From Candidatus Omnitrophota bacterium (lineage in GTDB: Bacteria > Omnitrophota > Gorgyraeia > Aquiviventales > Aquiviventaceae), in NCBI GenBank assembly GCA_016198905.1, contig JACQHR010000006.1, positions 1 through 37,128 on the forward strand: a stretch of DNA of 37,128 nt, read 5' to 3'. The position numbers and the translations under genes are program-made. The notes under the pieces are model-generated. The model saw nothing but the letters and a program-made list of their open reading frames with translations, was not told the origin of the DNA and did no database searches. Of the stretch, positions 6,147 through 34,481 are shown one piece after another (within the stretch, counting starts at the first letter, position 1; each line of letters starts with the position of its first letter).

Positions 6147-7483
6147 CGTGGCACTTCCTTGTGCGCTTTCACCGTCAGCCGAATGGGAATCCCCGCCAGC
6201 CGCGAATCGGCATGGAGTTGTTTGAGTAGGAAGTGAAGATAAGGTTCTGGAAGCCGGCCCAGCGGACGCGTGGTCAGCTCAAGACGAGCCGGAGGCCCGA
6301 CCAGCCAGCGGGCCTGCTGCAAAGAAATCACGCGTCCGCGAAACCGCGGCGGCTGATGCCGGCTCCACGCGCGGCGCAGCAACACCATACACTCCGCTTC
6401 TGAAAGCCCGCGCCGCATCGCCTGAGCGACCTGACGCGCCAGGGCGAGGCCGCGCGTCACCTGAAAACCTGTCTTGGCGGAGACCGCCACCACCGGCGCA
6501 AAGGTGACCGACGGCGCTGCGCGATGCATCGCCTCTGTCAGCGCCCGTTCACCGCTCCCCTTGACAAGGTCCCACTTATTCACCACGAGCACAAGGCCCC
6601 GCCCGGCTTCACAGACCTGGGTGAGGATGCGCTGGTCATCGCGCGTCACCCCTTGGGTCGCATCAAGCACGACCAGGGCCACATCACAGCGCGTGATGGC
6701 CTCAACCGTCCGCGCCATCGAAAAGATATCGACCGGATGACGCACTTTGCGCCGGTGCCGCAACCCCGCGGTATCAATCAACCGCACGCGCTCCCCGTGA
6801 CTCTCGAGGATCGTATCGACCACGTCTCGCGTCGTTCCAGGCACCTCGCTGACGATCGCGCGCTCCTCGCGCAGGAGGGCGTTGAGCAAGGAGGATTTGC
6901 CGACGTTCTGGCGCCCGACAATCGCCACCCCCATCGTGGCCGTGTGGCACGCCTCCGCACGTCCATTCCCGGGGCGTTGCGCCCAGGCCAGCAGCTGGTC
7001 GAGCACGTGGTTGATGCCGCGGCCATGCAGCGCAGAAATGGGGATGACGTCGCCGACGCCGAGCCCGAGGAACTCCGGAGCCACCTCCGGCCGATGATCC
7101 GCCTTATTGACCACGATCAGCATCGGCTTGCCGGCCCGCCGCACCCGCTCGAGGATCATCTGATCCGCCGGGAGCAGCCCCTCGATCGCATCGCAGACCA
7201 ACACAATCGCGTCTGCTTCGCGCACCGCCTGCTGGACATGGCGCTGCACGGCGGCGGCCAGCGATCCTTCGGTCTCAAATTCCACGCCGCCCGTATCAAT
7301 CACGGTGAAGCGCGTGCCGTGCCACTCGCAGGTCGCATAGAGCCTATCCCGCGTCGTGCCGCGCAACGTAGAGACCACCGCCGTGCGCGAGCCGATCAGG
7401 CGATTGAACAGCGTGGACTTGCCGACGTTGGGACGTCCGACAAGCACGACGCGCAGGTGATGAGAGTCAACCGGTGTAGTCAT
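6143..7483 (-). CDS. der: Ribosome biogenesis GTPase Der (EngA)
   Basis: 446 residues from the ATG at 7481-7483; the 30 codons upstream in the same frame do not look native. Two tandem GTPase domains: the first with GRPNVGKS (residues 16-23), DTGG and NKAD, the second with GRQNVGKSS, DTAGL and NKWD. A C-terminal KH-like domain follows (from about residue 350). Der is needed for late 50S subunit assembly. It lies 55 nt after pgsA and is translationally coupled to plsY. Confidence 0.96.
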   Translation of the reverse strand: MTTPVDSHHLRVVLVGRPNVGKSTLFNRLIGSRTAVVSTLRGTTRDRLYATCEWHGTRFTVIDTGGVEFETEGSLAAAVQRHVQQAVREADAIVLVCDAIEGLLPADQMILERVRRAGKPMLIVVNKADHRPEVAPEFLGLGVGDVIPISALHGRGINHVLDQLLAWAQRPGNGRAEACHTATMGVAIVGRQNVGKSSLLNALLREERAIVSEVPGTTRDVVDTILESHGERVRLIDTAGLRHRRKVRHPVDIFSMARTVEAITRCDVALVVLDATQGVTRDDQRILTQVCEAGRGLVLVVNKWDLVKGSGERALTEAMHRAAPSVTFAPVVAVSAKTGFQVTRGLALARQVAQAMRRGLSEAECMVLLRRAWSRHQPPRFRGRVISLQQARWLVGPPARLELTTRPLGRLPEPYLHFLLKQLHADSRLAGIPIRLTVKAHKEVPR

Positions 7484-7538
7484 GACGTGGGAACATATCC
7501 GCTGAGAGGGGGCGTCGGGACGCTGTGGTACGGTCTGG

Positions 7539-8084
7539 CTAGCTGACAACGGTGCGCAGGCCCCGGCGCACATAGCCGATGGCCGAGAGTACCGTCAGCA
7601 CCGTCGCGATTCCCAACAGCCATGGCTTCAGCGACCACCCCAGCAGCACGGAGGGAATGACCAGCATTTGGGCCACGGTGGTGCACTTGCCCAGCCAGCT
7701 GGGCCGCACGCTCCAGCGCCCCTGAATCGAAAAAAGCACGAGGGTGCCGGTCACCAATAGCGCGTCTCGGCTGATCACCACCAGATTGAACCACGCCGGG
7801 ATGCGCATGCTCTCGGGAAGGCCGTGAATGGTCGAACAACTGATGAGCGCACTCAAGATCAGCGCTTTGTCCGCGATGGGATCCAGGAGCGTGCCGAATT
7901 CGGTTTGCTGATGGCAGACGCGCGCCAGGAATCCATCGAGCGCGTCCGAGGCAATCGCCACCATAAACAACCCGAGCGAGAGAAACCGGAACCAGTCCCG
8001 ATCAGGATGGTAGTACACGAGCGAGGCCACAAACGCCGGCACCAACAGGATGCGGAAGATCGTCACCTTGTTGGCAAGACTCAT
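7539..8084 (-). CDS. pgsA: CDP-diacylglycerol--glycerol-3-phosphate 3-phosphatidyltransferase
   Basis: 181 residues from the ATG at 8082-8084 (MSLANKVTIFRILLVPAF), the typical PgsA start and length. The CDP-alcohol phosphotransferase signature is complete: SDALDGFLAR, 8 residues, G, 3 residues, D, 3 residues, D (DPIADK). It makes phosphatidylglycerol phosphate at the inner membrane. The same frame extends upstream to a GTG at 8184-8186, adding 34 residues (including LLPPEVKPQRG) that do not resemble the family and include a palindrome. The ATG is therefore preferred, although the hairpin abuts it and could mask ribosome binding. Confidence 0.93.
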   Translation of the reverse strand: MSLANKVTIFRILLVPAFVASLVYYHPDRDWFRFLSLGLFMVAIASDALDGFLARVCHQQTEFGTLLDPIADKALILSALISCSTIHGLPESMRIPAWFNLVVISRDALLVTGTLVLFSIQGRWSVRPSWLGKCTTVAQMLVIPSVLLGWSLKPWLLGIATVLTVLSAIGYVRRGLRTVVS

Positions 8085-24893: not shown

Positions 24894-25286
24894 TCACCTG
24901 CCCGTACTGCGCGCCGGCGCAATCAGAGTTCCTGGTGCCCCAGCGACTGCTCGTTTAATGAGGAAGAATCGCATTCGGGGATTCCGCTTCAACAGTACTT
25001 CGCGAGTACGAGCCGCCCGCATGCTCGCATGTATCTCATAGCCCAGGAGACGCCATGGCCGCATGCGTCGAGTCGAGATCGTGGTACCCGCGGCATGTTG
25101 TTCAAGGCGTCGCTGCAGATTGGTGGTCGCGCCAACGTAGAATTGGCCGGTCGCGCGACTTTGCATCACATAGACGTAAGCAAGATTGCTAGCGCCGCCT
25201 TGACGGGCAGGTGATGGGACCCCACCACTTGGCGCTCGCCCCGCAGGGGCGATAGCTGTTGTCTCTGCGACAAGTGGTGGGGTCAT
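24894..25286 (-). CDS. GIY-YIG nuclease family protein (UPF0213-like)
   Basis: 130 residues if the ATG at 25284-25286 is used; that ATG overlaps the trpE stop as ATGA. The GIY-YIG domain occupies about residues 36-110: AYVYVMQS carries the first motif (Tyr-Val-Tyr), FYVG the second, then the Arg-rich NLQRRLEQH and a REVLLKRNP helix with the likely metal-binding Glu. Family members are small standalone endonuclease-like proteins. Residues 1-35 are encoded by the palindromic repeat and look non-native, yet no other start codon precedes the first motif in frame. The TGA stop lies within the left inverted repeat, so the element frames the gene exactly. Activity is unproven. Confidence 0.85.
25218..25284. 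repeat. Long palindrome at the right end of the GIY-YIG element
   Basis: Perfect 14-bp arms GACCCCACCACTTG (25218-25231) and CAAGTGGTGGGGTC (25271-25284) enclose a second hairpin CGCCCC/GGGGCG (25237-25251). In the transcript it would fold just after the trpE stop codon. It could lower read-through into trpG or be a transposition end structure. No T-run follows. Confidence 0.75.
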
Positions 25287-26791
25287 CGAGCAAACCGGCG
25301 TTCGGCGATCTCGATCGCTTGGAGCATGCCCTTGGCCTTACTCAACGTCTCGTGATACTCGCGCACCGGATGCGAGTCGGCGACGATCCCGGCTCCGGCC
25401 TGGATGTAGGCCTGGTGCCCCTTCATGAGAATCGTCCGAATGGTAATGCACGTATCGAGGTTGCCGGAGAAACTCAGATACCCCACCGCCCCGGCATAGG
25501 TGCCGCGATCGTGCCGCTCAAGCTCGGCGATGATCTCCATCGCCCGGACCTTCGGCGCGCCGGTCACCGTGCCGGCTGGAAACGTCGCGCGCAGCACATC
25601 GAAAGCCGTCTTGCCCGGCCGCAGCGTCGCGGTCACGCTGCTGACGAGATGCAGCACGTGCGAGTATTTCTCGACGATCATCAACTCCGGCGTTTGTACC
25701 GACCCGGTCACGGCGACTCGCCCGAGATCGTTACGGCTAAGATCGACGAGCATGAGATGCTCGGCGCGCTCTTTGGGGCTGGCCTGCAGCTGGCGGATGA
25801 GCTGCTCATCTTCGCGATCGGTGGCCCCGCGGCGCCGCGTGCCCGCGATCGGCCGCGTCTCCAGGCGCCCATCTTCGCAGCGGATGAGCATTTCCGGCGA
25901 GGTCCCGACGAGGCACAGCGAGTTGAAGCGCAGGTGGTACATGTACGGCGACGGATTGAGCGATCGCAACACCCGGTAGACATCGAAGGAGCCGCACGTC
26001 ACGCGCCGTTCGAGCCGCTGCGAGACCACACCTTGAATAATCTCCCCCGCGCGAATGTCACGCTTGGCCTGCTCGACCATGCGATGGAACTGTCCCGGCG
26101 TGACATTCGAGTGCACGCGCGTCTCGAGGCGGCTGCGTCGCGGCGAAAGGCGCCCACGCGACGGCGGCAACGGCCCTCGCAACCGGCGCGCCATCGCGTC
26201 GATGCGGCGCACGGCCCTTCGATACGCCGCGCGGGGACGTTCGCCGTCAAGGATCGCGTTGGCCACCAACAGGATTTTGTGCTCGGCGTGATCGAAAACC
26301 GCCATCGTGTCGGCCAGCATCAGCATGATATCCGGCACTTTCACATCATCGATTTGATGGGGCGGCAAGCGCTCCAGGAATCGCACGACGTTGTAGCCAA
26401 GATAGCCGACCAACCCGCCGCAGAAGCGCGGGAGCCCCTCGACGGGGACGGCGCGAAACTGTCCCATCAAGCGCTCGATCTCTTTCAACGGGTCGGTGTG
26501 CGTTTCGAAACGCGCGACGCGCGGCGGCCGCCCCTCGGGAAATTCTGAGCGCTCAAGATGCCGTCCTGACGCCGTGACCAGCCACCGCGGACGGCTGCCG
26601 ACAAACGAGAAGCGCGCGAGTCGTTCCTCGCCGCTGACCGACTCCAGTAAGAAACTGAAGCGCCCGTCATCGAGTTTGAGGTACGCGCTGACCGGTGTTT
26701 CCAGATCGCCCACGTGTTCCCCATAGACCGGGATGACGTTGCCCTGCTTCGCCAACTTCAGAAATTCAGCTTCCGTGGGTCGGATGTCCAT
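25283..26791 (-). CDS. trpE: Anthranilate synthase component I
   Basis: 502 residues. TrpE makes anthranilate from chorismate with ammonia from TrpG. The N-terminal domain has the LLES element (FSFLLESVSGEERLARFSFVG) that forms the tryptophan feedback site. The C-terminal chorismate-binding domain has IAGTRRRGA, LSRNDLGRVA, FPAGTVTGAPKVRAMEII and AGAGIVADS. It starts 5 nt after hisI, so histidine and tryptophan genes share a transcript, and it ends at the inserted GIY-YIG element. Confidence 0.96.
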   Translation of the reverse strand: MDIRPTEAEFLKLAKQGNVIPVYGEHVGDLETPVSAYLKLDDGRFSFLLESVSGEERLARFSFVGSRPRWLVTASGRHLERSEFPEGRPPRVARFETHTDPLKEIERLMGQFRAVPVEGLPRFCGGLVGYLGYNVVRFLERLPPHQIDDVKVPDIMLMLADTMAVFDHAEHKILLVANAILDGERPRAAYRRAVRRIDAMARRLRGPLPPSRGRLSPRRSRLETRVHSNVTPGQFHRMVEQAKRDIRAGEIIQGVVSQRLERRVTCGSFDVYRVLRSLNPSPYMYHLRFNSLCLVGTSPEMLIRCEDGRLETRPIAGTRRRGATDREDEQLIRQLQASPKERAEHLMLVDLSRNDLGRVAVTGSVQTPELMIVEKYSHVLHLVSSVTATLRPGKTAFDVLRATFPAGTVTGAPKVRAMEIIAELERHDRGTYAGAVGYLSFSGNLDTCITIRTILMKGHQAYIQAGAGIVADSHPVREYHETLSKAKGMLQAIEIAERRFAR

Positions 26792-26796
26792 GGGCG

Positions 26797-27228
26797 TTAG
26801 GTGGTCCGATAGATCGTCGCAGGATCGAACACGCGGCGGCCGACGGTGACTACCTTCCCGTTGCGACCGAGCCGTCGGAAGTAGCAGGTGAAATAGCCGG
26901 CGTGGCAGGCGGCGACGTGCTGTGTCACGAGCAGCACGAGCGACTGGCCTTCGCAGTCCATCAAGACTTCCTTAATGAGCTGGATGTGGCCTGAGGTTTC
27001 GCCCTTCTGCATCAGTCGATTCTGCGACCGCCTGAAAAGGTACACCGTCCCGGTCTCCAGGCTCTTCTTCAATGCGTCTTGATTCAGGTAGCAGAGAGTC
27101 AGCACCTGCTTGGTCTTCGCATCCTGGATCACGGTCGGCATCAACCCCTGCTCGTTAAAATGAAGCAGCGGTACGAGCGTCTCGCATCCCTCAATCGGTT
27201 TTCCTCTTCGCTGCATCTTCTGTTTCAT
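26797..27228 (-). CDS. hisI: Phosphoribosyl-AMP cyclohydrolase
   Basis: 143 residues from the ATG at 27226-27228; the frame extends upstream to a GTG at 27307-27309 through repeat DNA, so the shorter form is preferred. It opens the adenine ring of PR-AMP, the third step of histidine synthesis. Landmarks are NEQGLMPTVIQDAKTKQVLTL, SGHIQL and the zinc Cys residues in HVAACHAGYFTCYF. The magnesium motif, usually D-C-D-x-D, reads DCEGQS here, with Glu and Gln in place of two Asp residues. No HisE domain is fused. It follows the gatA/hisF chimera, whose hisF part is its natural operon partner. Confidence 0.88.
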   Translation of the reverse strand: MKQKMQRRGKPIEGCETLVPLLHFNEQGLMPTVIQDAKTKQVLTLCYLNQDALKKSLETGTVYLFRRSQNRLMQKGETSGHIQLIKEVLMDCEGQSLVLLVTQHVAACHAGYFTCYFRRLGRNGKVVTVGRRVFDPATIYRTT

Positions 27229-27258
27229 CAGTTGAATGTCTTCATCTGTTTTCGTTGC

Positions 27259-27320
27259 GGCGGGTTCTGTCGCGGCGTCCCCTCGCCGGCACGCGCTCGT
27301 CGGCCCCACCGTGGCCGCCG
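27259..27320 (+). repeat. Interspersed GC-rich repeat, copy 1
   Basis: It begins GGCGGGTTCTG and, after 5 nt, continues GCGTCCCCTCGCCGGCACGC to GTGGCCGCCG. The reverse strand of 30143-30229 has the same opening and the same roughly 46-bp second block with about five differences, but a 30-nt spacer. It fills the gap upstream of hisI and creates its spurious N-terminal extension. Confidence 0.6.
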
Positions 27321-27338
27321 CGCCACCCGCCGACCAGC

Positions 27339-28724
27339 TCAGACTCTCACAGGAACTCCGCGAGCAGCCAGCGAATGTTTCACATCGCCGATCGACAGCT
27401 CACCAAAGTGAAACAACGAGGCGGCCAGCGCGGCGTCCGCGCCGCCCACGGTGAGCGCGTCATAGAAATGCTCGAGGGTTCCTGCTCCACCCGAGGCAAT
27501 GACCGGAATGCGCACGGCATCCGCGACCGCCTTAGTCAACTCCAGATCATAGCCCGCTTTCGTGCCGTCCCGATCCATGCTCGTCAGTAAAATCTCTCCG
27601 GCCCCGCGTTGCTCAGCATCCTTGGCCCACGCGATCGCATCCTTGCCGGTCGGGGTTCGACCACCGTGCGTGTAGACCTCCCATCGCAAACCTGAGACCG
27701 GAGACCGGAGACCGGAGACTGTTGCGCGTAATCCATACTTCACGCCGTCGTACCGGGCAAGGTTCGAGCTGGCCTCGGCGGTCGCAATAATATAGTAGGT
27801 CTCCACGGCGTGGCTGATGTGCGGGAGCGCGACAGTTTCCGTCGTGACGCCGAGCCGCTCGAAGACGCGCAGCGCCTCGGCGAGCGCGGTCTTGATGCCA
27901 GGATCCAGTCCTTCTTCCGGTAGCGCTGGAACGCCGATGCGCAAGCCTTTCACCGGCTGCTCGAGCGCTCGGAGATACTCCGGAACGTCGACCGGTGCCG
28001 AAGTTGAGTCGCGTTCGTCATGACCGGCGATCACCGAGAGCACGATCGCGGCATCGCGCACATCTTTCGTCAGCGGCCCAATCTGATCGAGGGACGAGGC
28101 GAAGGCGATCAACCCATAGCGCGAGACGCGCCCGTACGTGGGCTTCAGACCCACGATCCCGCAGAACGCGGCCGGCTGCCGGATCGATCCTCCGGTGTCG
28201 CTGCCAAGTGCGGCCACCGCAAGGTCGGCGGCCACCGCCGCGGCCGATCCGCCGCTTGAGCCACCGGGCACGCGATCGAGTGCTTGACCCCACGGGTTCT
28301 TCGTCGGCCCGAACGCCGAGTTCTCGGTGGAGGATCCGAACGCGAACTCATCCATATTCGCGCGCGGAATCAGCACCGCACCCTCGCGCCGCAGGCGCTC
28401 GATCACCGTCGCGTCATACGGCGACCTGAATCCCTGCAGGATTTTGGAGCCGCACGCGGTTTCTTCTCCGGTGATGCAGATGTTGTCCTTGATCGTGATG
28501 GGAATCCCGTGCAGCCGGCCGCGCCGACCGGCTAAGGTTCCACCATCGCGCAGTTGGCGGCGCACGCGCTCAGGTTGAACCATGATGTAGGCATGCAGCG
28601 TTGGGTTGAACCGCTCTATGCGCGCCAGGACATCGTCGAGCACCTCCTGGGGCGACACCGTGCCGGCCTCAAGCAGGCCGCGCAATTCATGAATGGTCTT
28701 GGACGCGAGTTCGCCGGTTGGCAT
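27339..28724 (-). CDS. In-frame chimera: N-terminal GatA joined to C-terminal HisF
   Basis: 461 residues. Residues 1 to about 330 are Glu-tRNA(Gln)/Asp-tRNA(Asn) amidotransferase subunit A, with the full amidase triad: Lys79, cis-Ser156 and nucleophile Ser180 ([15 protein letters not shown]). Residues from about 346 onward are the C-terminal half of imidazole glycerol phosphate synthase HisF ([46 protein letters not shown]). The link is [11 protein letters not shown], encoded by a GACCGGAGA tandem repeat. Missing are the last 150 or so residues of GatA and the first half of HisF, including both catalytic Asp residues. gatC upstream and hisI downstream fit the two halves. Neither function is expected to be complete; misassembly is possible. 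Confidence 0.9.
27691..27720. repeat. GAGACCGG tandem repeat at the gatA/hisF junction
   Basis: About three and a half copies of GACCGGAGA run from 27691 to 27720, exactly at the change from GatA to HisF homology. The 9-nt period keeps the reading frame and encodes SGLRSP-type peptides. Related GAGACCGG/GAGACAGG units occur at 32225-32317 inside the surA-like gene. Confidence 0.85.
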
Positions 28725-28732
28725 CGAATGGA

Positions 28733-29026
28733 TTACGTGTCGATCACTTTGGGGACTGTGATGAACGGAGGCTGCGCGGCAGGGGCCAGCGCCATGACAA
28801 CGTCTTGCGGCAGCGAAGGGCGCAACTCATCCTTGCGCAGCACGTTTGAGAGCGGCAGCACGTGGCTCGTCGGTTCGACGTCTTCGGTCGCCACGGCCTG
28901 GAGCCGTTGGACGTATCCGAGGATCTCATTGACTTGGCCGGCAAACCGCTCCAGCGCCTCGCCTTCCAGGCGCAGGCGCGCGAGTCGCGCCACATGTTTG
29001 ATGATGTCAGGGGTGACAAGGCTCAT
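28733..29026 (-). CDS. gatC: Aspartyl/glutamyl-tRNA amidotransferase subunit C
   Basis: 97 residues. GatC is the small subunit that wraps around GatA in the GatCAB complex. The typical opening [39 protein letters not shown] and the ending with [12 protein letters not shown] and FITVPKVID are complete. It starts the gatCA operon, 8 nt before gatA; gatB is not seen and may have been lost with the gatA 3' part. A promoter and a leader hairpin precede it. Confidence 0.95.
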
Positions 29027-29044
29027 GCATGTCCCTCGTCATTC

Positions 29045-29106
29045 GTTGTCCGTTTACCGACGGACACAACAGGCTCTTTTCTAACATATCACGTCCATCA
29101 ACGCAA
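29045..29106 (-). promoter_or_regulatory. Promoter and leader hairpin of gatC
   Basis: On the minus strand: -35 TTGCGT (29101-29106), 17-bp spacer, -10 TAGAAA (29078-29083). The leader of about 45 nt contains an imperfect hairpin, GTTGTGTCCGT with ACGGACAAC (about 29045-29071). The same -35 hexamer serves the lipoprotein promoter at 8605-8633. The hairpin's role is unknown; it does not resemble a T-box. Confidence 0.5.
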
Positions 29107-29943
29107 GGGCTTCGCGCGCCACACCGCATTCGCCAATGTTGCGAATTGCTCAAGCGACAGGGTCTCGCCGCGAACGCGCGGGGACAGATCCGCGCGAGCA
29201 AGCAGCGCAGAAAGGTCGACACCCTTCAGCCACGCGGCCTGCTCCGCGTGAAGACAATTCAGCAGCGTCTTGCGCCGTTGCGCGAAGGCCGCCTTCACCA
29301 CACGAAAGAACACGCCTTCATCCTCCACCGGCACCGCCGGATGCGCGCGCGCAGCCAATTGAATGCACGCCGAATCCACCGCCGGCTGCGGGAAGAACGC
29401 GCTGCGCGGCACCGGCATGACGGGTGTGATCGTCCAGCAGTATTGCCCAAGCACGCTCAACCGCCCGTAGGCCTTCGTGCCCGGCTTGGCGAGCAAACGC
29501 CGGGCCACTTCCTGCTGAAGAATGAGAATCGCTCGCCGGATGAAGGGCCGCGCCTCGCAAAGTGAGACAAGGATCGGCGACGTAATGTGATACGGAATCG
29601 CGCCCACCACGGTCACGGGCGCGACCTCCTTCCACGCAAACGTCAGAATATCTTGGCACCGCACCGTAATGTTGGAACTCGACGCCAAGCGCTCGCGCAG
29701 CAGCTCGCACACGCCCCGATCCACCTCGACGGCCAGCACCTGTTTGACGCGGCGCGCCAGCGATTCGGTGAGGGCTCCCAGGCCTGCGCCGATTTCGACG
29801 ACGGTGTCCTCAGGCGACAACGCTGCGCGATCCAGCACGCGTTCGATCACGCGCGCATCAATCAGATGATTCTGCCCCAACCGTTTCGTGAGATGGATCT
29901 CATGAATCCGCAGGAAACTCTTGAGCTCCGTAACCGTCAGCAT
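29098..29943 (-). CDS. rsmA: 16S rRNA dimethyladenosine transferase RsmA (KsgA)
   Basis: 281 residues from the ATG at 29941-29943 (MLTVTELKSFLRIHEIHLTKRLGQNHLID). It dimethylates two adjacent adenines near the 3' end of 16S rRNA using SAM. Motif I is VVEIGAGLGALTE. Motif IV, normally N-L/I-P-Y/F, reads GAIPYHIT, so the catalytic-site Asn is replaced by Ala115. The C-terminal helical domain (QRRKTLLNCL, RGETLSLEQFATLANAV) is normal. The upstream open frame to 30141 is repeat-rich and not coding. The gene ends within the gatC promoter region. Confidence 0.93.
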   Translation of the reverse strand: MLTVTELKSFLRIHEIHLTKRLGQNHLIDARVIERVLDRAALSPEDTVVEIGAGLGALTESLARRVKQVLAVEVDRGVCELLRERLASSSNITVRCQDILTFAWKEVAPVTVVGAIPYHITSPILVSLCEARPFIRRAILILQQEVARRLLAKPGTKAYGRLSVLGQYCWTITPVMPVPRSAFFPQPAVDSACIQLAARAHPAVPVEDEGVFFRVVKAAFAQRRKTLLNCLHAEQAAWLKGVDLSALLARADLSPRVRGETLSLEQFATLANAVWRAKPLR

Positions 29944-30252
29944 CTTATCACTTGTCCCACAACCTCCCGCGTGGGTCCTGCCGCCTGAAGAATTGTGTGA
30001 TGCGGTGTAGTCGGGGCGGAGAAACTGCGCTCCATCGGCCCGGCCAGGTCCTGAGCCGGACGTCTCGGAGGGCGAGCGGCCACGGATCCCGAGCCAGATT
30101 AGAGACCGCAGCGAGGGAGAGCGAGCCCGAGAGCCGAGCACCGGCGGCCACGGCGGGGCCGCCGAGTGCGTGCCGGCGAGGGACGCTGGCTGGGCCAGAA
30201 GCAGCCAAGTCCCCTGGCAGAACCCGCCAACGCATATCTCTCATCTCACACC
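29944..30252. other. 309-base intergenic region between pdxA and rsmA, filled with GC-rich repeats
   Basis: No gene or RNA is visible. The stretch holds GGGTCCTGCCGCC (about 29973-29985), several GAGCGAG/CGGAG-type short direct repeats (30030-30140), and a copy of the interspersed repeat (30143-30229). Part of it remains open in the rsmA frame, which gives a false 66-residue extension. Confidence 0.6.
30143..30229 (-). repeat. Interspersed GC-rich repeat, copy 2
   Basis: Read on the minus strand it opens GGCGGGTTCTGCC and ends with GCGTCCCTCGCCGGCACGC through CCGTGGCCGCCG. The same two blocks occur on the plus strand at 27259-27320, separated there by a shorter spacer. The conserved outer blocks with a variable centre suggest a small mobile or recombining repeat. 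Confidence 0.6.
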
Positions 30253-31248
30253 TCAGAGCCTGGCAGCGAGTTTGGTCGCGAGCCTGAGCGCGTAGCGCAT
30301 CGAGCCGGGATTCGCGATGCCGCGGCCGGCGATATCCAGCGCGCTGCCGTGGTCAGGCGACGTGCGCACAATGGGCAGGCCGAGGCTCACCTGACAGCCC
30401 TGATCGCGCGCAGCCATCTTGAATGGGATCAGACCTTGATCGTGGTAGCTGCAAATGATCGCGTCATACCGCGTCGCGTGCGTGAAGAACCCATCCGCCG
30501 CGAACGGCCCGTCGCATCGAATACCTTGGCGACGCAACCGCCGCAGCGCCGGGATCATGACCGCTTGCTCTTCTCGTCCGCATCGCCCTTCTTCACCCGC
30601 ATGCGGATTGATGCCGCACACCGCAAGCGTCGGCTGCCGGATGTGAAACTGTGTGGTGAGTGCGCTCGCGGTCAGGCGCACCGACCGCTCGAGCAGGGTC
30701 GAAGTCACCGCGCGGCCGACCCGATGAAGAGGAATGTGGCGGGTCAGCAGGACCACGCGCATCGCATCTGAGACGAACATCATCACGACCTCGCGCGCCG
30801 CCATCGCGCGCGCCAGATATTCGGTGTGCCCGACGAACGACGGCTCAACCGCGGCCACCGCCCACTTCGTCACCGGCGCGGTCACCAACCCGTGAATCGT
30901 GCCGGCTCGCCACAGTCGAATCGCTTCCTCGAGATACGTCAACGCTGCGCGCCCGGCATGGGACGAGGATCGCCCGGGCACAAACCGCCGCGACGATCCG
31001 CACTCCACGAAGGTCAGCGCGTGGCCGCGCGCGCGATCCATGCCACCGCGAGGCACCACGCGCCAGCGTGGAAGCCGCCGATGCAGCCGCGCCGCGGTGC
31101 GCTCAAACACCGCGAGGTCGCCGATCACCACCAGGCGTGTCCGGCGGACGGCGTCCGTCGTCAGGGCCTTGAGAATCACTTCAGGCCCGACGCCGCATGG
31201 ATCACCGGCAGTAATTGCGAGAGTCACAGGAGTGTTTCGAGCCGTCAT
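30253..31248 (-). CDS. pdxA: 4-hydroxythreonine-4-phosphate dehydrogenase
   Basis: 331 residues from the ATG at 31246-31248 (MTARNTPVTLAITAGDPCGVGPE), preceded by GGAGA. PdxA oxidises 4-phosphohydroxythreonine in vitamin B6 synthesis. Metal-binding His residues are in VGHTEYLA, SYHDQGLIPFK and the GINPHAGE(E)G block; the C-terminal LPIVRTSPDHGSALDIAGRG is characteristic. In many bacteria surA, pdxA and rsmA lie together, and the same order is kept here. Confidence 0.95.
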   Translation of the reverse strand: MTARNTPVTLAITAGDPCGVGPEVILKALTTDAVRRTRLVVIGDLAVFERTAARLHRRLPRWRVVPRGGMDRARGHALTFVECGSSRRFVPGRSSSHAGRAALTYLEEAIRLWRAGTIHGLVTAPVTKWAVAAVEPSFVGHTEYLARAMAAREVVMMFVSDAMRVVLLTRHIPLHRVGRAVTSTLLERSVRLTASALTTQFHIRQPTLAVCGINPHAGEEGRCGREEQAVMIPALRRLRRQGIRCDGPFAADGFFTHATRYDAIICSYHDQGLIPFKMAARDQGCQVSLGLPIVRTSPDHGSALDIAGRGIANPGSMRYALRLATKLAARL

Positions 31249-31285
31249 GGGAGAGTCTCCGCGCCGCGTACACACGCGTGCGGCG

Positions 31286-32338
31286 TTAGCCTTCAGGCGT
31301 GATGTCGATGTAGGCTTTGCGCTTCAGCTCGGCCATCCATCGGTTGAGGGCGTGTTGAAACTTCTGCTGATACAGTTTCTGATAAATCGCCCGGTGAGCC
31401 TCCATCATGGAGAGGCTCGACGCAGGCCGGCGCTCTTCCACGTTCACGAGATGGAACCCCAACTTGGTGCGAATCGGCTCGGACACCGTGCCGGGTGCCA
31501 GGCTTGATACGACCGCATCGAGTTCGGGCAGCAATTCTCCCGGGGCCACCCAGCCCATCGCGCCGCCGTCTGCGCCGTGCGAGTCCTCGGAGTAGCGCTT
31601 CGCCAGCGCTGCGAAGTCGGCGCCACGGCTGAGCTGCTGCCGGATGTCGCGAATCAGATCGCGCGCCTGCTCCTCTGAACGCGCTTCGGTAACGCGGACC
31701 AGCAGACCCGAGGCTTTCACGCGGTCGCCCGGCTTCTCCAGCTCTGGATGCGCGCCGAGTTCTTGCGCCACTTCTTGAGGGCTCACGACAATCTTTGAGC
31801 CGATGTGGTCATCAATGATGCGGCGGACCATCAGGTGCTGGCGCACGCGCTCTTTCAATTGTTCCTCGGTCAGCCCGGCCTGAGCCAGCGACCGCTGGAA
31901 CTCTTCCTCTGAGCGAGCCTGCGCCTTGAGACGGCCCAACCGCTCAAGGACGTCATCCGTGCCGATCGTGATGCCCGCGCGCTTGGCTTCCTGTAACAAT
32001 AATTGTTGTTCGATGAGGTGGCGCAGCGCGGCGCGGCGCATCTCGCTGGCATCCGGCTTGGCTCCCTCGGATGTCGACGCCGTATCATCCAGGAGCGCGT
32101 TCACCTGCGAGGTGACATCCGCCTCGGTGATGACGCCGTCATTCACCACCGCCACGATGCGATTGACCGTCGCGGCCCACAGTAGTGGACCCCCAATCGC
32201 AAGACAGACGAACCCGCCCATCAAGACATGAGACATGAGACATGAGACTGAAGACCGGAGATTGGAGACCGGAAACCATTGACCGGTCTCTGGTCTCCTG
32301 TCTCCTGTCTCCTGTCTCAAACGGGATATTCTGTTCAT
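31286..32338 (-). CDS. surA: SurA-like periplasmic peptidyl-prolyl isomerase (parvulin type)
   Basis: 350 residues. After the export signal, VNRIVAVVNDGVITEADV is the usual opening of SurA N-domains, and one parvulin domain occupies about residues 200-300 (ARDLIRDIRQQLSRGADFAALAKRYSEDSHGADGGAMGWV... GFHLVNVEERRPA). It should chaperone outer-membrane proteins. The start overlaps the mfd stop (ATGA), but codons 8 to about 35 are made of a GAGACAGG-type repeat ([20 protein letters not shown]). The working signal peptide probably begins at one of the later Met codons (MSHVLMGGFVCLAIGGPLLWA). Only one parvulin domain is present, against two in E. coli SurA. Confidence 0.88.
   Translation of the reverse strand: MNRISRLRQETGDRRPETGQWFPVSNLRSSVSCLMSHVLMGGFVCLAIGGPLLWAATVNRIVAVVNDGVITEADVTSQVNALLDDTASTSEGAKPDASEMRRAALRHLIEQQLLLQEAKRAGITIGTDDVLERLGRLKAQARSEEEFQRSLAQAGLTEEQLKERVRQHLMVRRIIDDHIGSKIVVSPQEVAQELGAHPELEKPGDRVKASGLLVRVTEARSEEQARDLIRDIRQQLSRGADFAALAKRYSEDSHGADGGAMGWVAPGELLPELDAVVSSLAPGTVSEPIRTKLGFHLVNVEERRPASSLSMMEAHRAIYQKLYQQKFQHALNRWMAELKRKAYIDITPEG
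32225..32317. repeat. GAGACAGG/GAGACCGG repeat cluster inside the surA-like gene
   Basis: Successive short units, GACATGA (three copies), GAGACCGGA-like, then GTCTCCT in the opposite orientation (TCTCCTGTCTCCTGTCTCC), give an imperfect inverted structure of about 90 bp. It lies in the 5' coding part of the surA-like gene and keeps the frame. The units match those at 27691-27720. Confidence 0.75.
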
Positions 32339-34350
32339 GTCGTCCCAACCGTCACTCGACTGCGTGAGAGCGGCTCACTCGGTGACACACCCTGACGAAT
32401 GCGACTGACGGCCTCGCGTAATAGGCGACAGTATAGATCAAAACCGACCGCGCTGATATGCCCAGATTGCTCCACTCCCAGCACATTGCCCGCGCCGCGG
32501 ATCTTGAGGTCCTCCATCGCGATCTTGAATCCCGAACCCAGGGCGGTATGCTCCATCATCGTATCGAGCCGCTTGCGGGCTTCGGCGGTCGGCACGCCGT
32601 CTTTCGACAGCACCAGATACGCATAGGCTTTGCGATCGAACCGCCCGACGCGTCCGCGCAGCTGATACAAATCCGCCAAGCCGAACGCTTCGGCGTTCCT
32701 GACGATGAGCGTGTTGGCGTTAGGAATATCGATGCCCGATTCAATGATGGTCGTCGTGATCAGGACATCGATCGAGCCATCCATCAGGGCCAGCATCACC
32801 TGTTCCAGTTCGTGCTCGCCCATTTGCCCGTGGGCCACGCCGATGCGCGCTTCTGGTACCAGCTTCGAGAGCCGCTGCGCGACCTGGCGGATGTTGTGCA
32901 CGCGGTTATGAATGACGTAGACTTGCCCGTTCCGGGCAAGCTCGCGCAGGATCCAGCGGCGCATCGCCTCGTCGTCCTCTTCCACCACGTGCGTGTCGAC
33001 CGGATGGCGATTCTCCGGCGCTGTCGTGATGAGCGACATATCGCGCGCGCCCACCAGCGAGAGATACAGCGTGCGCGGAATCGGGGTCGCGGAAAGGGTG
33101 AGCACATCCATCTGGCTGCGCCATTGCTTGAGCTTTTCTTTATCCTGCACGCCAAAGCGCTGCTCCTCATCCACGATGAGCAGCCCGAGATCATGAAACC
33201 GCAGATCGCCGGACAGGAGCCGGTGCGTGCCGATGACGATGTCGCAATGGCCGCGCGCCACGGCGTCCACGATCGCGCGCTGCTGCGCGTCCGTTTGCAG
33301 GCGGCTGAGCATTTCGATTTGAATCGGAAAGTCCGCCATCCGCTTCGTCAGCGTGCGGTAATGTTGATAGGCGAGAATCGTCGTCGGCACCAGCAGGGCG
33401 ACTTGCGTGTGATCCATGACCGCTTTGAATGCCGCGCGGATCGCGACCTCGGTCTTGCCGTAGCCCACATCGCCCAAGAGGAGGCGATCCATCGGCCGCG
33501 GCTGCTCCATGTCACGCTTGACGTCCATCGTCGCGGTCAACTGATCCGGCGTTTCCCGATACGGAAACGCGGCCTCAAACGTCCGCTGCCACTCATGATC
33601 TTTCGAAAACGCTATCCCGGGCAGCGCAAGGCGTTTGGCCTGGATGTCCAGCAGCGCTTTCGCGTACGTCCATGCGCCCACGTAGGCGTGCGTCTTGGCC
33701 CGCTCCCATGCGGCCCCTCCCAATTTGTGCACGCTGGGCGCGCGCGCGCCGAAGGCCACGTACTTCTGCACGAGATGGAGCTGATCCATCGGCACGTAGA
33801 GCCGGTCGCCATCGGCGTACTCAAGGATCAGCGCGTCTTGCCCGCCCCGGCGCTCATGACTGGCGGGCCTGCCCCGGATGTCGTCTCCCGATGCCCGGGG
33901 CCGGGGCGGCCCGCTGGATTCTGCAAGCGTTTCCCGACCAATGTAGCGACCAATACCATGCTCAAGATGCACAACGTAGTCCCCCTTCCTCAGATCGACG
34001 AACGATTCAAACGGCACATCGGTTGAGGGTCTGGTATGGATGCGGCGCGGCAGGATGACGACCATGGTGTGACGGTCGAGCGTGTCCAGCGTCTTCGGGT
34101 TGAAGCTGCGCATGGAGACCACCCGGGAGCCGTCAAACTCGATGCGCAGCGGCGACTCAAACGTCGCCGGGAACACATCGAGGATGCCGCCGCGATGGGC
34201 GAACTCGCCGGGATTCGCGACCTCATCGGCGCGCTCGTAGTCGCACGCCAGCAGCTGCTCGATGAGCGAATGGAGGGATTGGTGTTGACCGACGTAGAGC
34301 CGACAGTATTCAAACATCAGAGAGAAATGCGAGAGTAGCACAAAGCACAA
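32335..34350 (-). CDS. mfd: Short Mfd-type transcription-repair coupling factor
   Basis: 671 residues, against about 1150 in E. coli. It retains a UvrB-like segment (CDYERADEVANPGEFAHRGG and following), the RNA-polymerase-interacting domain (GDYVVHLEHGIGRY, YADGDRLYVPMDQLHLV), and both translocase lobes: Walker A GDVGYGKTE, DEEQRFG, SATPIPRT, IIESGIDIPNANT, QLRGRVGR. It lacks the first 110 or so residues, the roughly 250 residues between the UvrB-like segment and the RNAP domain, and the C-terminal autoinhibitory domain. The stop overlaps surA (ATGA), so the short C terminus looks genuine. The start is uncertain (ATG at 34348-34350 or 34315-34317) and lies in repeat DNA. A 30-residue Gly/Pro/Arg-rich insert interrupts the RNAP domain. 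Confidence 0.88.
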   Translation of the reverse strand: MCFVLLSHFSLMFEYCRLYVGQHQSLHSLIEQLLACDYERADEVANPGEFAHRGGILDVFPATFESPLRIEFDGSRVVSMRSFNPKTLDTLDRHTMVVILPRRIHTRPSTDVPFESFVDLRKGDYVVHLEHGIGRYIGRETLAESSGPPRPRASGDDIRGRPASHERRGGQDALILEYADGDRLYVPMDQLHLVQKYVAFGARAPSVHKLGGAAWERAKTHAYVGAWTYAKALLDIQAKRLALPGIAFSKDHEWQRTFEAAFPYRETPDQLTATMDVKRDMEQPRPMDRLLLGDVGYGKTEVAIRAAFKAVMDHTQVALLVPTTILAYQHYRTLTKRMADFPIQIEMLSRLQTDAQQRAIVDAVARGHCDIVIGTHRLLSGDLRFHDLGLLIVDEEQRFGVQDKEKLKQWRSQMDVLTLSATPIPRTLYLSLVGARDMSLITTAPENRHPVDTHVVEEDDEAMRRWILRELARNGQVYVIHNRVHNIRQVAQRLSKLVPEARIGVAHGQMGEHELEQVMLALMDGSIDVLITTTIIESGIDIPNANTLIVRNAEAFGLADLYQLRGRVGRFDRKAYAYLVLSKDGVPTAEARKRLDTMMEHTALGSGFKIAMEDLKIRGAGNVLGVEQSGHISAVGFDLYCRLLREAVSRIRQGVSPSEPLSRSRVTVGTT
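33838..33925. repeat. GC-rich palindromic insert within the mfd RNAP-interacting domain
   Basis: The bases encode about residues 142-171 (ESSGPPRPRASGDDIRGRPA...), which have no counterpart in other Mfd proteins between IGRETL and LILEYADGD. They contain complementary GC-rich blocks (GCCCCGGCCCCGGGC, CCGGGGCAGGCCCGCC, GCGCCGGGGCGGGC). This resembles in-frame palindromic elements such as those known in Rickettsia. Confidence 0.6.
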
Positions 34351-34481
34351 TCAAGGCAATCGATGTCGGCAGAAAGCAGACGCCTTCACGACTTGTCTAC
34401 GTGGAATCGATAAGAAACAACCCACGTTCTTCCTGCTTTAATCTTGTACTGTGTGCTTACTGCTTTGTGCTTTCTGCTGGT
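34351..34481. repeat. argS-mfd spacer with GCTTTGTGCTTTCTGC-type repeats
   Basis: The 131-bp gap is AT-richer than its surroundings. It has AGCACAAAGCAC and GCAGAAAGCAG near the mfd start and TGCTTTGTGCTTTCTGC near the argS end, that is, inverted copies of the same short units. The mfd start codon itself lies in one copy. No gene is visible. Confidence 0.55.

Follow-up and report, generated by a model that had tools for sequence, protein, structure and literature searches.

The window analysed here is a stretch of 37,128 nucleotides from a Candidatus Omnitrophota genome (G000; 1.41 Mb in 42 contigs, 80% complete). Profile searches support the names of its mfd, gatA, hisF and argS genes and the SurA-type domains encoded beside mfd (the latter by Pfam). 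The features that concern us are the following.

31286-32338, minus strand: surA-like open reading frame of 350 aa, PPIC/SurA family (ORF list; Pfam Rotamase and SurA_N above cut-off).
32219-32236, minus strand: two later in-frame ATG codons, possible internal surA starts (sequence, ORF list, gene caller).
32224-32277, plus strand: first arm, an array of GAGACNN heptads in plus-strand sense (period-7 score 22 and sequence).
32278-32284, strand not assigned: gap of 7 nt, ATTGACC, separating both scored arrays (sequence, period-7 scan).
32285-32318, plus strand: second arm, inverted heptads NNGTCTC (period-7 score 22, hairpin folding).
32335-32338, minus strand: ATGA, the surA start overlapping the mfd stop.
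32335-34350, minus strand: mfd open reading frame of 671 aa, its best stretch matching TIGR00580 positions 339-822 of 907.
34341-34480, plus strand: third, degenerate inverted heptad pair, between argS and mfd (second arm by TRF, first arm by eye).
27339-28724, minus strand: chimeric GatA-array-HisF open reading frame (profile matches).
27690-27719, plus strand: second GAGACCG array of the window, four units, at the gatA-hisF join (TRF, period-7 scan).

The surA-like frame scores below the cut-off of the NCBIfam SurA equivalog (171 of 394 bits), and the mfd frame seems to be without N-terminal and internal parts because its match covers only that portion of TIGR00580. The degenerate pair between argS and mfd is of the AGCAC/GTGCT type, with AGCACAN/AGCAGAN units at about 34341-34382 and TGTGCTT/CTGCTTT units at 34444-34478. 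Elsewhere in the window, a frame of 130 aa at 24894-25286 holds a GIY-YIG catalytic domain (PF01541, E 3.6e-12) and, judged by eye, sits between trpE-like and trpG-like frames.

The first-pass annotation had placed a repeat at 32225-32317, by the surA start. The repeat is real: two heptad arrays occupy 32224-32318 and exceed chance, and together they form a palindrome with a 7-nt period, a feature absent from that annotation. On the surA strand the arm at 32285-32318 comes first and reads GAGACAG GAGACAG GAGACAG GAGACCA. Folded as RNA of the surA strand, 32224-32318 reaches -58.3 kcal/mol against -35.0 when shuffled (z -6.4); folded as DNA, z is -5.3, and none of 200 shuffles folds as well in either form. 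Single GAGACCGG-like 8-mers, with one mismatch allowed, showed no clear excess over chance: 57 were counted in the window where 48.5 are expected, and 13 of 100 shuffled versions had as many or more. The departure from chance at the surA array is its tandem, inverted arrangement, not single 8-mers. Positions 26000-34000 of the window gave no Rfam family match at gathering scores, and on this ground we rejected the array as a known RNA family.

The surA frame reads through the array, with MNRISRL before it and the hydrophobic GGFVCLAIGGPLLWAA after it, and contains the in-frame SNLRSS peptide that had been pointed out earlier. The overlap of surA start and mfd stop, also part of the first description, is kept in 21 of 23 genomes examined. 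Eight genomes have a period-7 score of at least 9 between mfd and mature SurA, and seven of them are open in frame from the ATGA start; the sole exception is G012, in which the frame from the overlapping ATG into mature SurA is not open. Since the ATGA start is kept and the frame is open, we locate the array where it had been placed before, after MNRISRL and ahead of the hydrophobic segment. An untranslated spacer is unlikely since the frame is kept in seven of the eight array-bearing genomes, yet the gene caller starts surA after the array, at 32221. This is the first base of the second internal ATG, just past the array; that of the other, 32236, lies inside the array's outer end. Judged from the frames, the array is probably translated, so that the earlier claim of an insertion within the translated region stands as probable.

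When the N termini of relatives were compared, strong SurA matches began at query residues 21-59 and Pfam SurA domains at 43-58, with the stretch itself differing among relatives; the array is thus not a conserved N-terminal SurA domain. Some relatives spell the hydrophobic segment itself in heptads, with CTGTTCA units giving LFTVHCS in G010 and TGTGTGC units in G003. The mfd-surA junction of G007 (L073) carries a different hairpin repeat, AAAAAGTGCCTGGCACTTTTT and its relatives, in several copies seen by eye.

We scanned the period spectrum of sampled genomes on unmasked bases, with the window included in the G000 sample and arrays at periods 14 and 21 regarded as multiples of 7. This spectrum was used instead of a block-6 shuffle control, which is unfair because it includes masked runs of N and its blocks create repeats (103-295 per period, more than observed). 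G000 holds 50 period-7 arrays in 362,552 bases, whereas each of the other periods between 2 and 13 gives 0-2. Period-7 arrays number 93 in 387,004 bases of G003, 66 in 258,710 bases of G010 and 23 in 194,625 bases of G027, a member of another family in the same order; across these four genomes, periods from 2 to 13 other than 7 give at most 7 arrays. In G023, of the same family as G000, we found 0 arrays in 129,901 sampled bases. A count of GAGACNNGAGAC gave 69 matches in G000 against 3 for the reversed pattern, so that the family is dispersed and not confined to the two loci first described. Three GAGACNN units are present in 14 of 27 family genomes and in 33 of 384 genomes drawn from the phylum; by hand count 55 of the 384 have the reversed control pattern, which is an unrelated heptad, and GAGAC is therefore not special. 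The notion of one invading GAGACC element did not survive: GAGACNN accounts for only some of 38 heptad types, and relatives carry other heptads or none at the same sites.

Arrays lie mainly between genes. With identical array sequences counted once, 575,060 bases of G000 (87% coding by the gene caller) contain 75 elements, 45 of them intergenic, and thus in 13% of the sampled DNA, 23 inside genes and 7 partly so; the gene caller counts the surA element itself as non-coding. The corresponding figures are 42, 17 and 16 for the 75 elements of G003, and 10, 5 and 3 for the 18 of G027. Because array-score thresholds vary (9, 11, 12.5, 13), a count of arrays should not be equated with one of elements or of pairs. 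The first-pass annotation had proposed a family that is tolerated in, or targets, coding regions; the elements inside genes bear out tolerance, whereas the excess in non-coding DNA speaks against targeting. Divergent spacers hold one of 94 intergenic elements, against 10.5 expected by spacer length or 5.7 by spacer number, and this near avoidance hints at selection.

Neighbouring arrays tend to be inverted copies of each other. In 88 neighbouring pairs from four genomes the consensus heptads are inverted in 54, direct in one and neither in 33, a match being 6 of 7 positions or better. None of 10,000 permutations of right arms paired as well as the observed arms in G000, G003 or G010; in G027, with 7 pairs, 197 of 10,000 did. 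We used this permutation test instead of a 5th-centile arm test (passed by 1/34, 4/25, 0/7 and 8/22 pairs), which is weak, we think, because right arms share heptads.

There is not one heptamer per genome, nor a few: we distinguished 38 heptad types in the 575-kb sample of G000, 36 in G003 and 41 in G010. The largest class makes up 18 of 96 instances in G000, 12 of 93 in G003 and 8 of 21 in G027, where random draws give maxima of 4, 4 and 3; in G010 the largest class (4 of 68) does not exceed what random draws give (maximum 5). The same heptads thus recur within G000, G003 and G027, and, at least in some genomes, spelling is also copied or biased across loci. G000 and G003 have 10 types in common (random mean 1.9, maximum 7), and sharing beyond all random draws was not found for the other five genome pairs. 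We left out a comparison of G010 heptads with those at its own sites, since the sample contains the sites themselves. No common module was seen beside the heptads in 147 G000 flanks of up to 80 bases; of the 22 flank pairs that matched at E<=0.001, inspection by eye put most down to further heptads or to one piece of DNA met twice, and two resemble unrelated matches between coding sequences. Variable columns show a modest tendency to adjoin: two neighbouring columns take 0.73-0.80 of the mismatches, against 0.66-0.72 with columns permuted. Heptads without T on one strand are slightly in excess in G000 (0.55-0.56 against 0.43), and no such excess was found in G027. A stop-free design was rejected: 0.51-0.56 of G000 arrays are stop-free on both strands, against 0.72 for random heptads.

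Which proteins carry arrays was examined by scanning 20 proteins chosen from 49 array-gene records. Best matches of the G000 proteins were ketol-acid reductoisomerase (IlvC), lysine-tRNA ligase, Lnt, SecA, ClpB, GrpE, DnaK, cytochrome oxidase subunit II, TsaD, porphobilinogen synthase, ATP synthase gamma and PurL (two arrays); those of the G003 proteins were UvrA, LysA, TruA, aspartate-semialdehyde dehydrogenase, NadC (two arrays), a phosphohexose mutase, a PilQ-like secretin and RpiB. Matches of the oxidase subunit, the mutase and the secretin to their models fall short of the curated cut-offs. SecA, DnaK, GrpE, IlvC and RpiB carry the array close to the C-terminus, the secretin and the oxidase close to the N-terminus.

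We then counted arrays at the same site across genomes, at a period-7 score of at least 9. After HMGWNQV of HisH an array is present in 14 of 25 genomes, after YGFRA of GatA in 8 of 21, and at the SurA site in 8 of 23. Between IDAKR and WEVYT of HisF, a period-7 array is present in 10 of 20 genomes and a period-8 array in one; the other nine have loops of 4-8 residues. The same scoring at other periods from 3 to 12 gave none for HisH or GatA, one for HisF (period 8) and one each at 4, 8 and 9 for SurA. Rows were dropped for GatA in G006 (a length that is not a multiple of 3, apparently duplicated), in G026, G004, G005, G016 and G027 (incomplete or unavailable) and in G000 (chimera); for HisF in G000 (chimera), G001 and G006 (one half only) and genomes with only paralogues; and for HisH in G003 and G004 (cut or masked) and G014 (paralogue), the paralogues L185-L190 and L290-L292 also being left out. 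All counted HisF, HisH and GatA inserts are multiples of 3 in length. The gatA of G006 (L094) has a 109-nt stretch, not a multiple of 3; a short duplication where the array lies seems to have shifted its frame. By eye, arrays at heptad sites of other genomes look period-8 in L120/L166 (G018 hisF; GTGGCCAA) and L079 (G014 surA; AAAGAACC and its inverse); the scored count has one period-8 insert each at the HisF and SurA sites, without naming genomes.

At the HisH site, 13 of the 14 array-bearing inserts are 36 or 39 nt long and one is 75, and the 11 array-free inserts are 15-27 nt. Kinship alone does not account for the heptads: AGCACAC is found in G000, G015 and G018 and AAGCGAC in G002 and G013, and the congeners G010 and G011 have AGCGTNN and AAGTCAA-like units respectively, both in 39 nt. 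HisH had not been preselected; it surfaced as an array-bearing gene in both G000 and G027. Four non-preselected array genes could be assessed in a second sampled genome: HisH again had an array, TsaD a weak one (score 10), and PurL and the phosphomutase none. Not every array site recurs, therefore. In-frame palindromes occur within protein genes at surA of the window and, in relatives, in GatA inserts L100 and L117 and in HisF insert L119. Going by these sites, related species can keep an array at the same place with differently spelled heptads.

The deep branches of a phylogeny of array presence are too weak to decide between gain and loss, and we therefore relied on the congeners G010 and G011, whose aligned loci are 0.85-0.92 identical at aligned columns. 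Their arrays coincide in position within hisH, hisF, surA and gatA, and both also have arrays in the spacers that follow hisH, hisF and gatA (next genes, by eye, hisA and gatB). The spacer after hisH has AGGTTNN/NNAACCY in G010 and AGGCTNN/NNAGCCT in G011, the cores differing in three left and three right units; that after gatA has GAGTGNN/NNCACTC and AGTAGNN/NNCTACK. Native arm pairings at these spacers reach -22.8, -33.5, -35.9 and -37.9 kcal/mol; crossed pairings reach -16.5 and -17.8 after gatA and -13.0 and -25.5 after hisH. At two spacers, then, the core differs in both arms between the congeners, though one crossed pairing, the left arm of G010 with the right arm of G011 after hisH, is as strong as the native G010 pairing (-25.5 against -22.8). 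At the surA site the units of G010 are CTGTTCA; in G011 a single CTGTTCA precedes TTGTTCA, TTGTTCA and TTGTGCA, so that two or three of the four units, but not all, differ by one base. Both gatA genes have GAGCCTN units, with an additional arm in G011, and HisH of G011 has a 21-nt, three-heptad in-frame insertion absent from G010.

The first-pass annotation had counted the gatA/hisF array as a second independent in-frame occurrence. Instead, it joins half a gatA to half a hisF: in the frame at 27339-28724, residues 17-335 match GatA, (GTCTCCG)n follows, and residues 330-460 match positions 120-254 of the 254-position HisF profile. The missing halves lie on contig C6 of G000, the HisF N-half at 6839-7243 and the GatA C-half at 7309-7746, with an array between them. 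This reciprocal product (C6:6839-7746; L052/L251) is out of frame, whereas the window product is in frame. From the sequence, either a crossover in identical arrays or misassembly would give such a chimera; we think misassembly likelier because gatA and hisF are genes normally needed. Metagenome contigs may be cross-joined at identical arrays in different genes, perhaps so here.

The surA feature belongs to a class of short arrays of fixed 7-nt period and free sequence, many of them paired as inverted repeats that form hairpins. As the likeliest cause, at about even odds, we see replication: slippage and template switching would make the arrays, which would be near-neutral. Period, inversion, reading frame, recurrence at the same site with different heptads and core change in both arms at two congener spacers are observed; from these we infer the cause, the near-neutrality and the flexibility of the sites. 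Slippage by one 7-nt step would add, remove and homogenise units in one arm. Intrastrand template switching in the hairpin would then transfer the spelling of that arm to its partner, and both cores would change at once. Some copying or bias between loci also acts in several genomes, as the same heptads recur. The 7-nt step is likelier to come from machinery than from sequence because the period is fixed while the sequence is free. The arrays would have no fixed product and selection would remove them from most genes; they would be tolerated where the frame is kept at a flexible place, such as the n-region of the SurA signal peptide, loops of HisF, HisH and GatA, or protein tails. Several observations pull the other way. 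The recurrence of heptads within G000, G003 and G027 beyond every random draw argues against independent slippage, and the variable two bases often differ between units although slippage should copy them with the core. Single-arm arrays in protein loops have no partner as template, replacement of heptads could also be loss and fresh insertion, and G023 is array-free in 130 kb. The strong crossed pairing after hisH, the partial change at surA, the array sites that do not recur and the avoidance of divergent spacers also count against it.

A mobile palindromic element (MITE-, REPIN- or RPE-like) that copies into new sites, the heptads being its degenerate body, seems unlikely to us. It would suit the many loci with the same heptads in G000, G003 and G027 and the GTCTCCG runs common to the gatA and hisF joins and C6:46549-46581, and in-frame insertion of palindromes is described for Rickettsia palindromic elements (PMC10969869); set against this are the G000 flanks, in which no common module was seen, and the dozens of unrelated heptads per genome. 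A RAYT-like driver gained no support, as Y1_Tnp (PF01797) does not track the arrays within the limits of incomplete genomes: it is found in 19 of 27 family genomes, is present in G024 and G026, where no array was seen at the sites examined, and was not found in array-bearing G003, G013, G015 and G017 (93, 70, 78 and 66% complete). G021 has nine Y1_Tnp matches, the most in the family (next 4). Selection for functional binding sites or RNA hairpins (translation control, mRNA stability, a nucleoid protein) we consider quite unlikely. Heptad cores would then drift with the specificity of a binding protein, and the non-coding excess (45 of 75 elements), the kept hairpin pairing and the nearly array-free divergent spacers (1/94) would fit, as would regulatory roles proposed for other heptamers in PMC4679880 and PMC4692102. 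One binding specificity is hard to square with 38 heptad types in one genome's sample, with different heptads at the same gene across genera and with arrays inside enzyme loops.

An enzyme, a reverse transcriptase or other, that writes heptads at chosen sites from a template would explain why the period is constant whatever the sequence and why all but one of the 14 array-bearing HisH inserts measure 36 or 39 nt though their heptads differ. We find it very doubtful. RVT_1 (PF00078), expected of an element written by a reverse transcriptase (DGR, retron, group II), was found in only one of 27 family genomes (63-96% complete), and this is G023, array-free in the 130 kb sampled; a reverse transcriptase as driver is not supported on that count, and the searched part of the window has no Rfam match. 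That the class is an artefact of assembly or binning is highly improbable: the reciprocal gatA/hisF chimera at an identical array looks like a misjoin and contig C9 of G000 begins within an array, but arrays stand at the same codon positions, in frame, in many separate genomes. More tentatively than slippage with template switching, we put forward a sequence-independent writing under a 7-nt rule, possible though doubtful, that places arrays of site-set length at fixed permissive sites and time and again replaces the heptads of both arms by new ones.

Each ingredient has been described singly: heptameric repeats and their close inverted pairs, palindromes in frame within genes, and hairpins that arise by template switching. 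In the P6b hairpin of the Nostoc tRNA-Leu(UAA) intron, heptanucleotide units pair in the stem and vary in number; unlike the arrays here they are at a single intron site, neither genome-wide nor coding. Heptameric repeats are described as GGGAATC in Xanthomonas, two genomes of which have 70 and 75 close inverted heptamer pairs, and GGGGAYT in Nostoc (PMC4692102), as TAACTGA in Beggiatoaceae (PMC4679880), and also in PMC6749651. According to these accounts they resemble our arrays in being 7-nt tandem units, here beyond chance, dispersed and mostly intergenic, but those papers follow a single heptamer per genome. The genomes here have dozens of unrelated ones, place arrays in frame within core genes and, in related genera, fill one and the same site with different heptads. 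According to PMC4679880, Mrazek et al. 2007 proposed a contact of 7 nt with the polymerase.

Rickettsia palindromic elements likewise place palindromic DNA in frame inside unrelated protein genes, but are presented as families of about 150 bp with a conserved peptide (PMC10969869); here only the period is conserved, as heptads differ at the same site and no flank module is common, and there is no family-wide sequence or peptide. Coding palindromes of nematomorph mitochondria are also inverted repeats inside translated genes; they are perfect, up to 284 bp and in conserved coding parts, and a heptad period is not mentioned in the sections drawn on (PMC6649704). Template switching at quasipalindromes, described as maker and as repairer or keeper of hairpins, can change both arms together, in keeping with the cores at two congener spacers; it is a mutation mechanism, not a repeat class, and no 7-nt period is described in the portion cited (PMC8794818).

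In searches of open-licence literature we found no report of many unrelated heptads per genome that recur in frame at fixed loops of core proteins. The arrays offer a natural series for the old question of why bacteria favour heptanucleotide repeats. At the HisH, HisF, GatA and SurA sites, sister genomes make it possible to test concerted evolution, template switching in hairpins and how far core enzymes tolerate rewritten loops. If the more tentative reading, writing under a 7-nt rule, were true, proteins would inherit the place and the length of an in-frame segment but not its sequence, and the permissive sites would include loops of essential enzymes and signal peptides.
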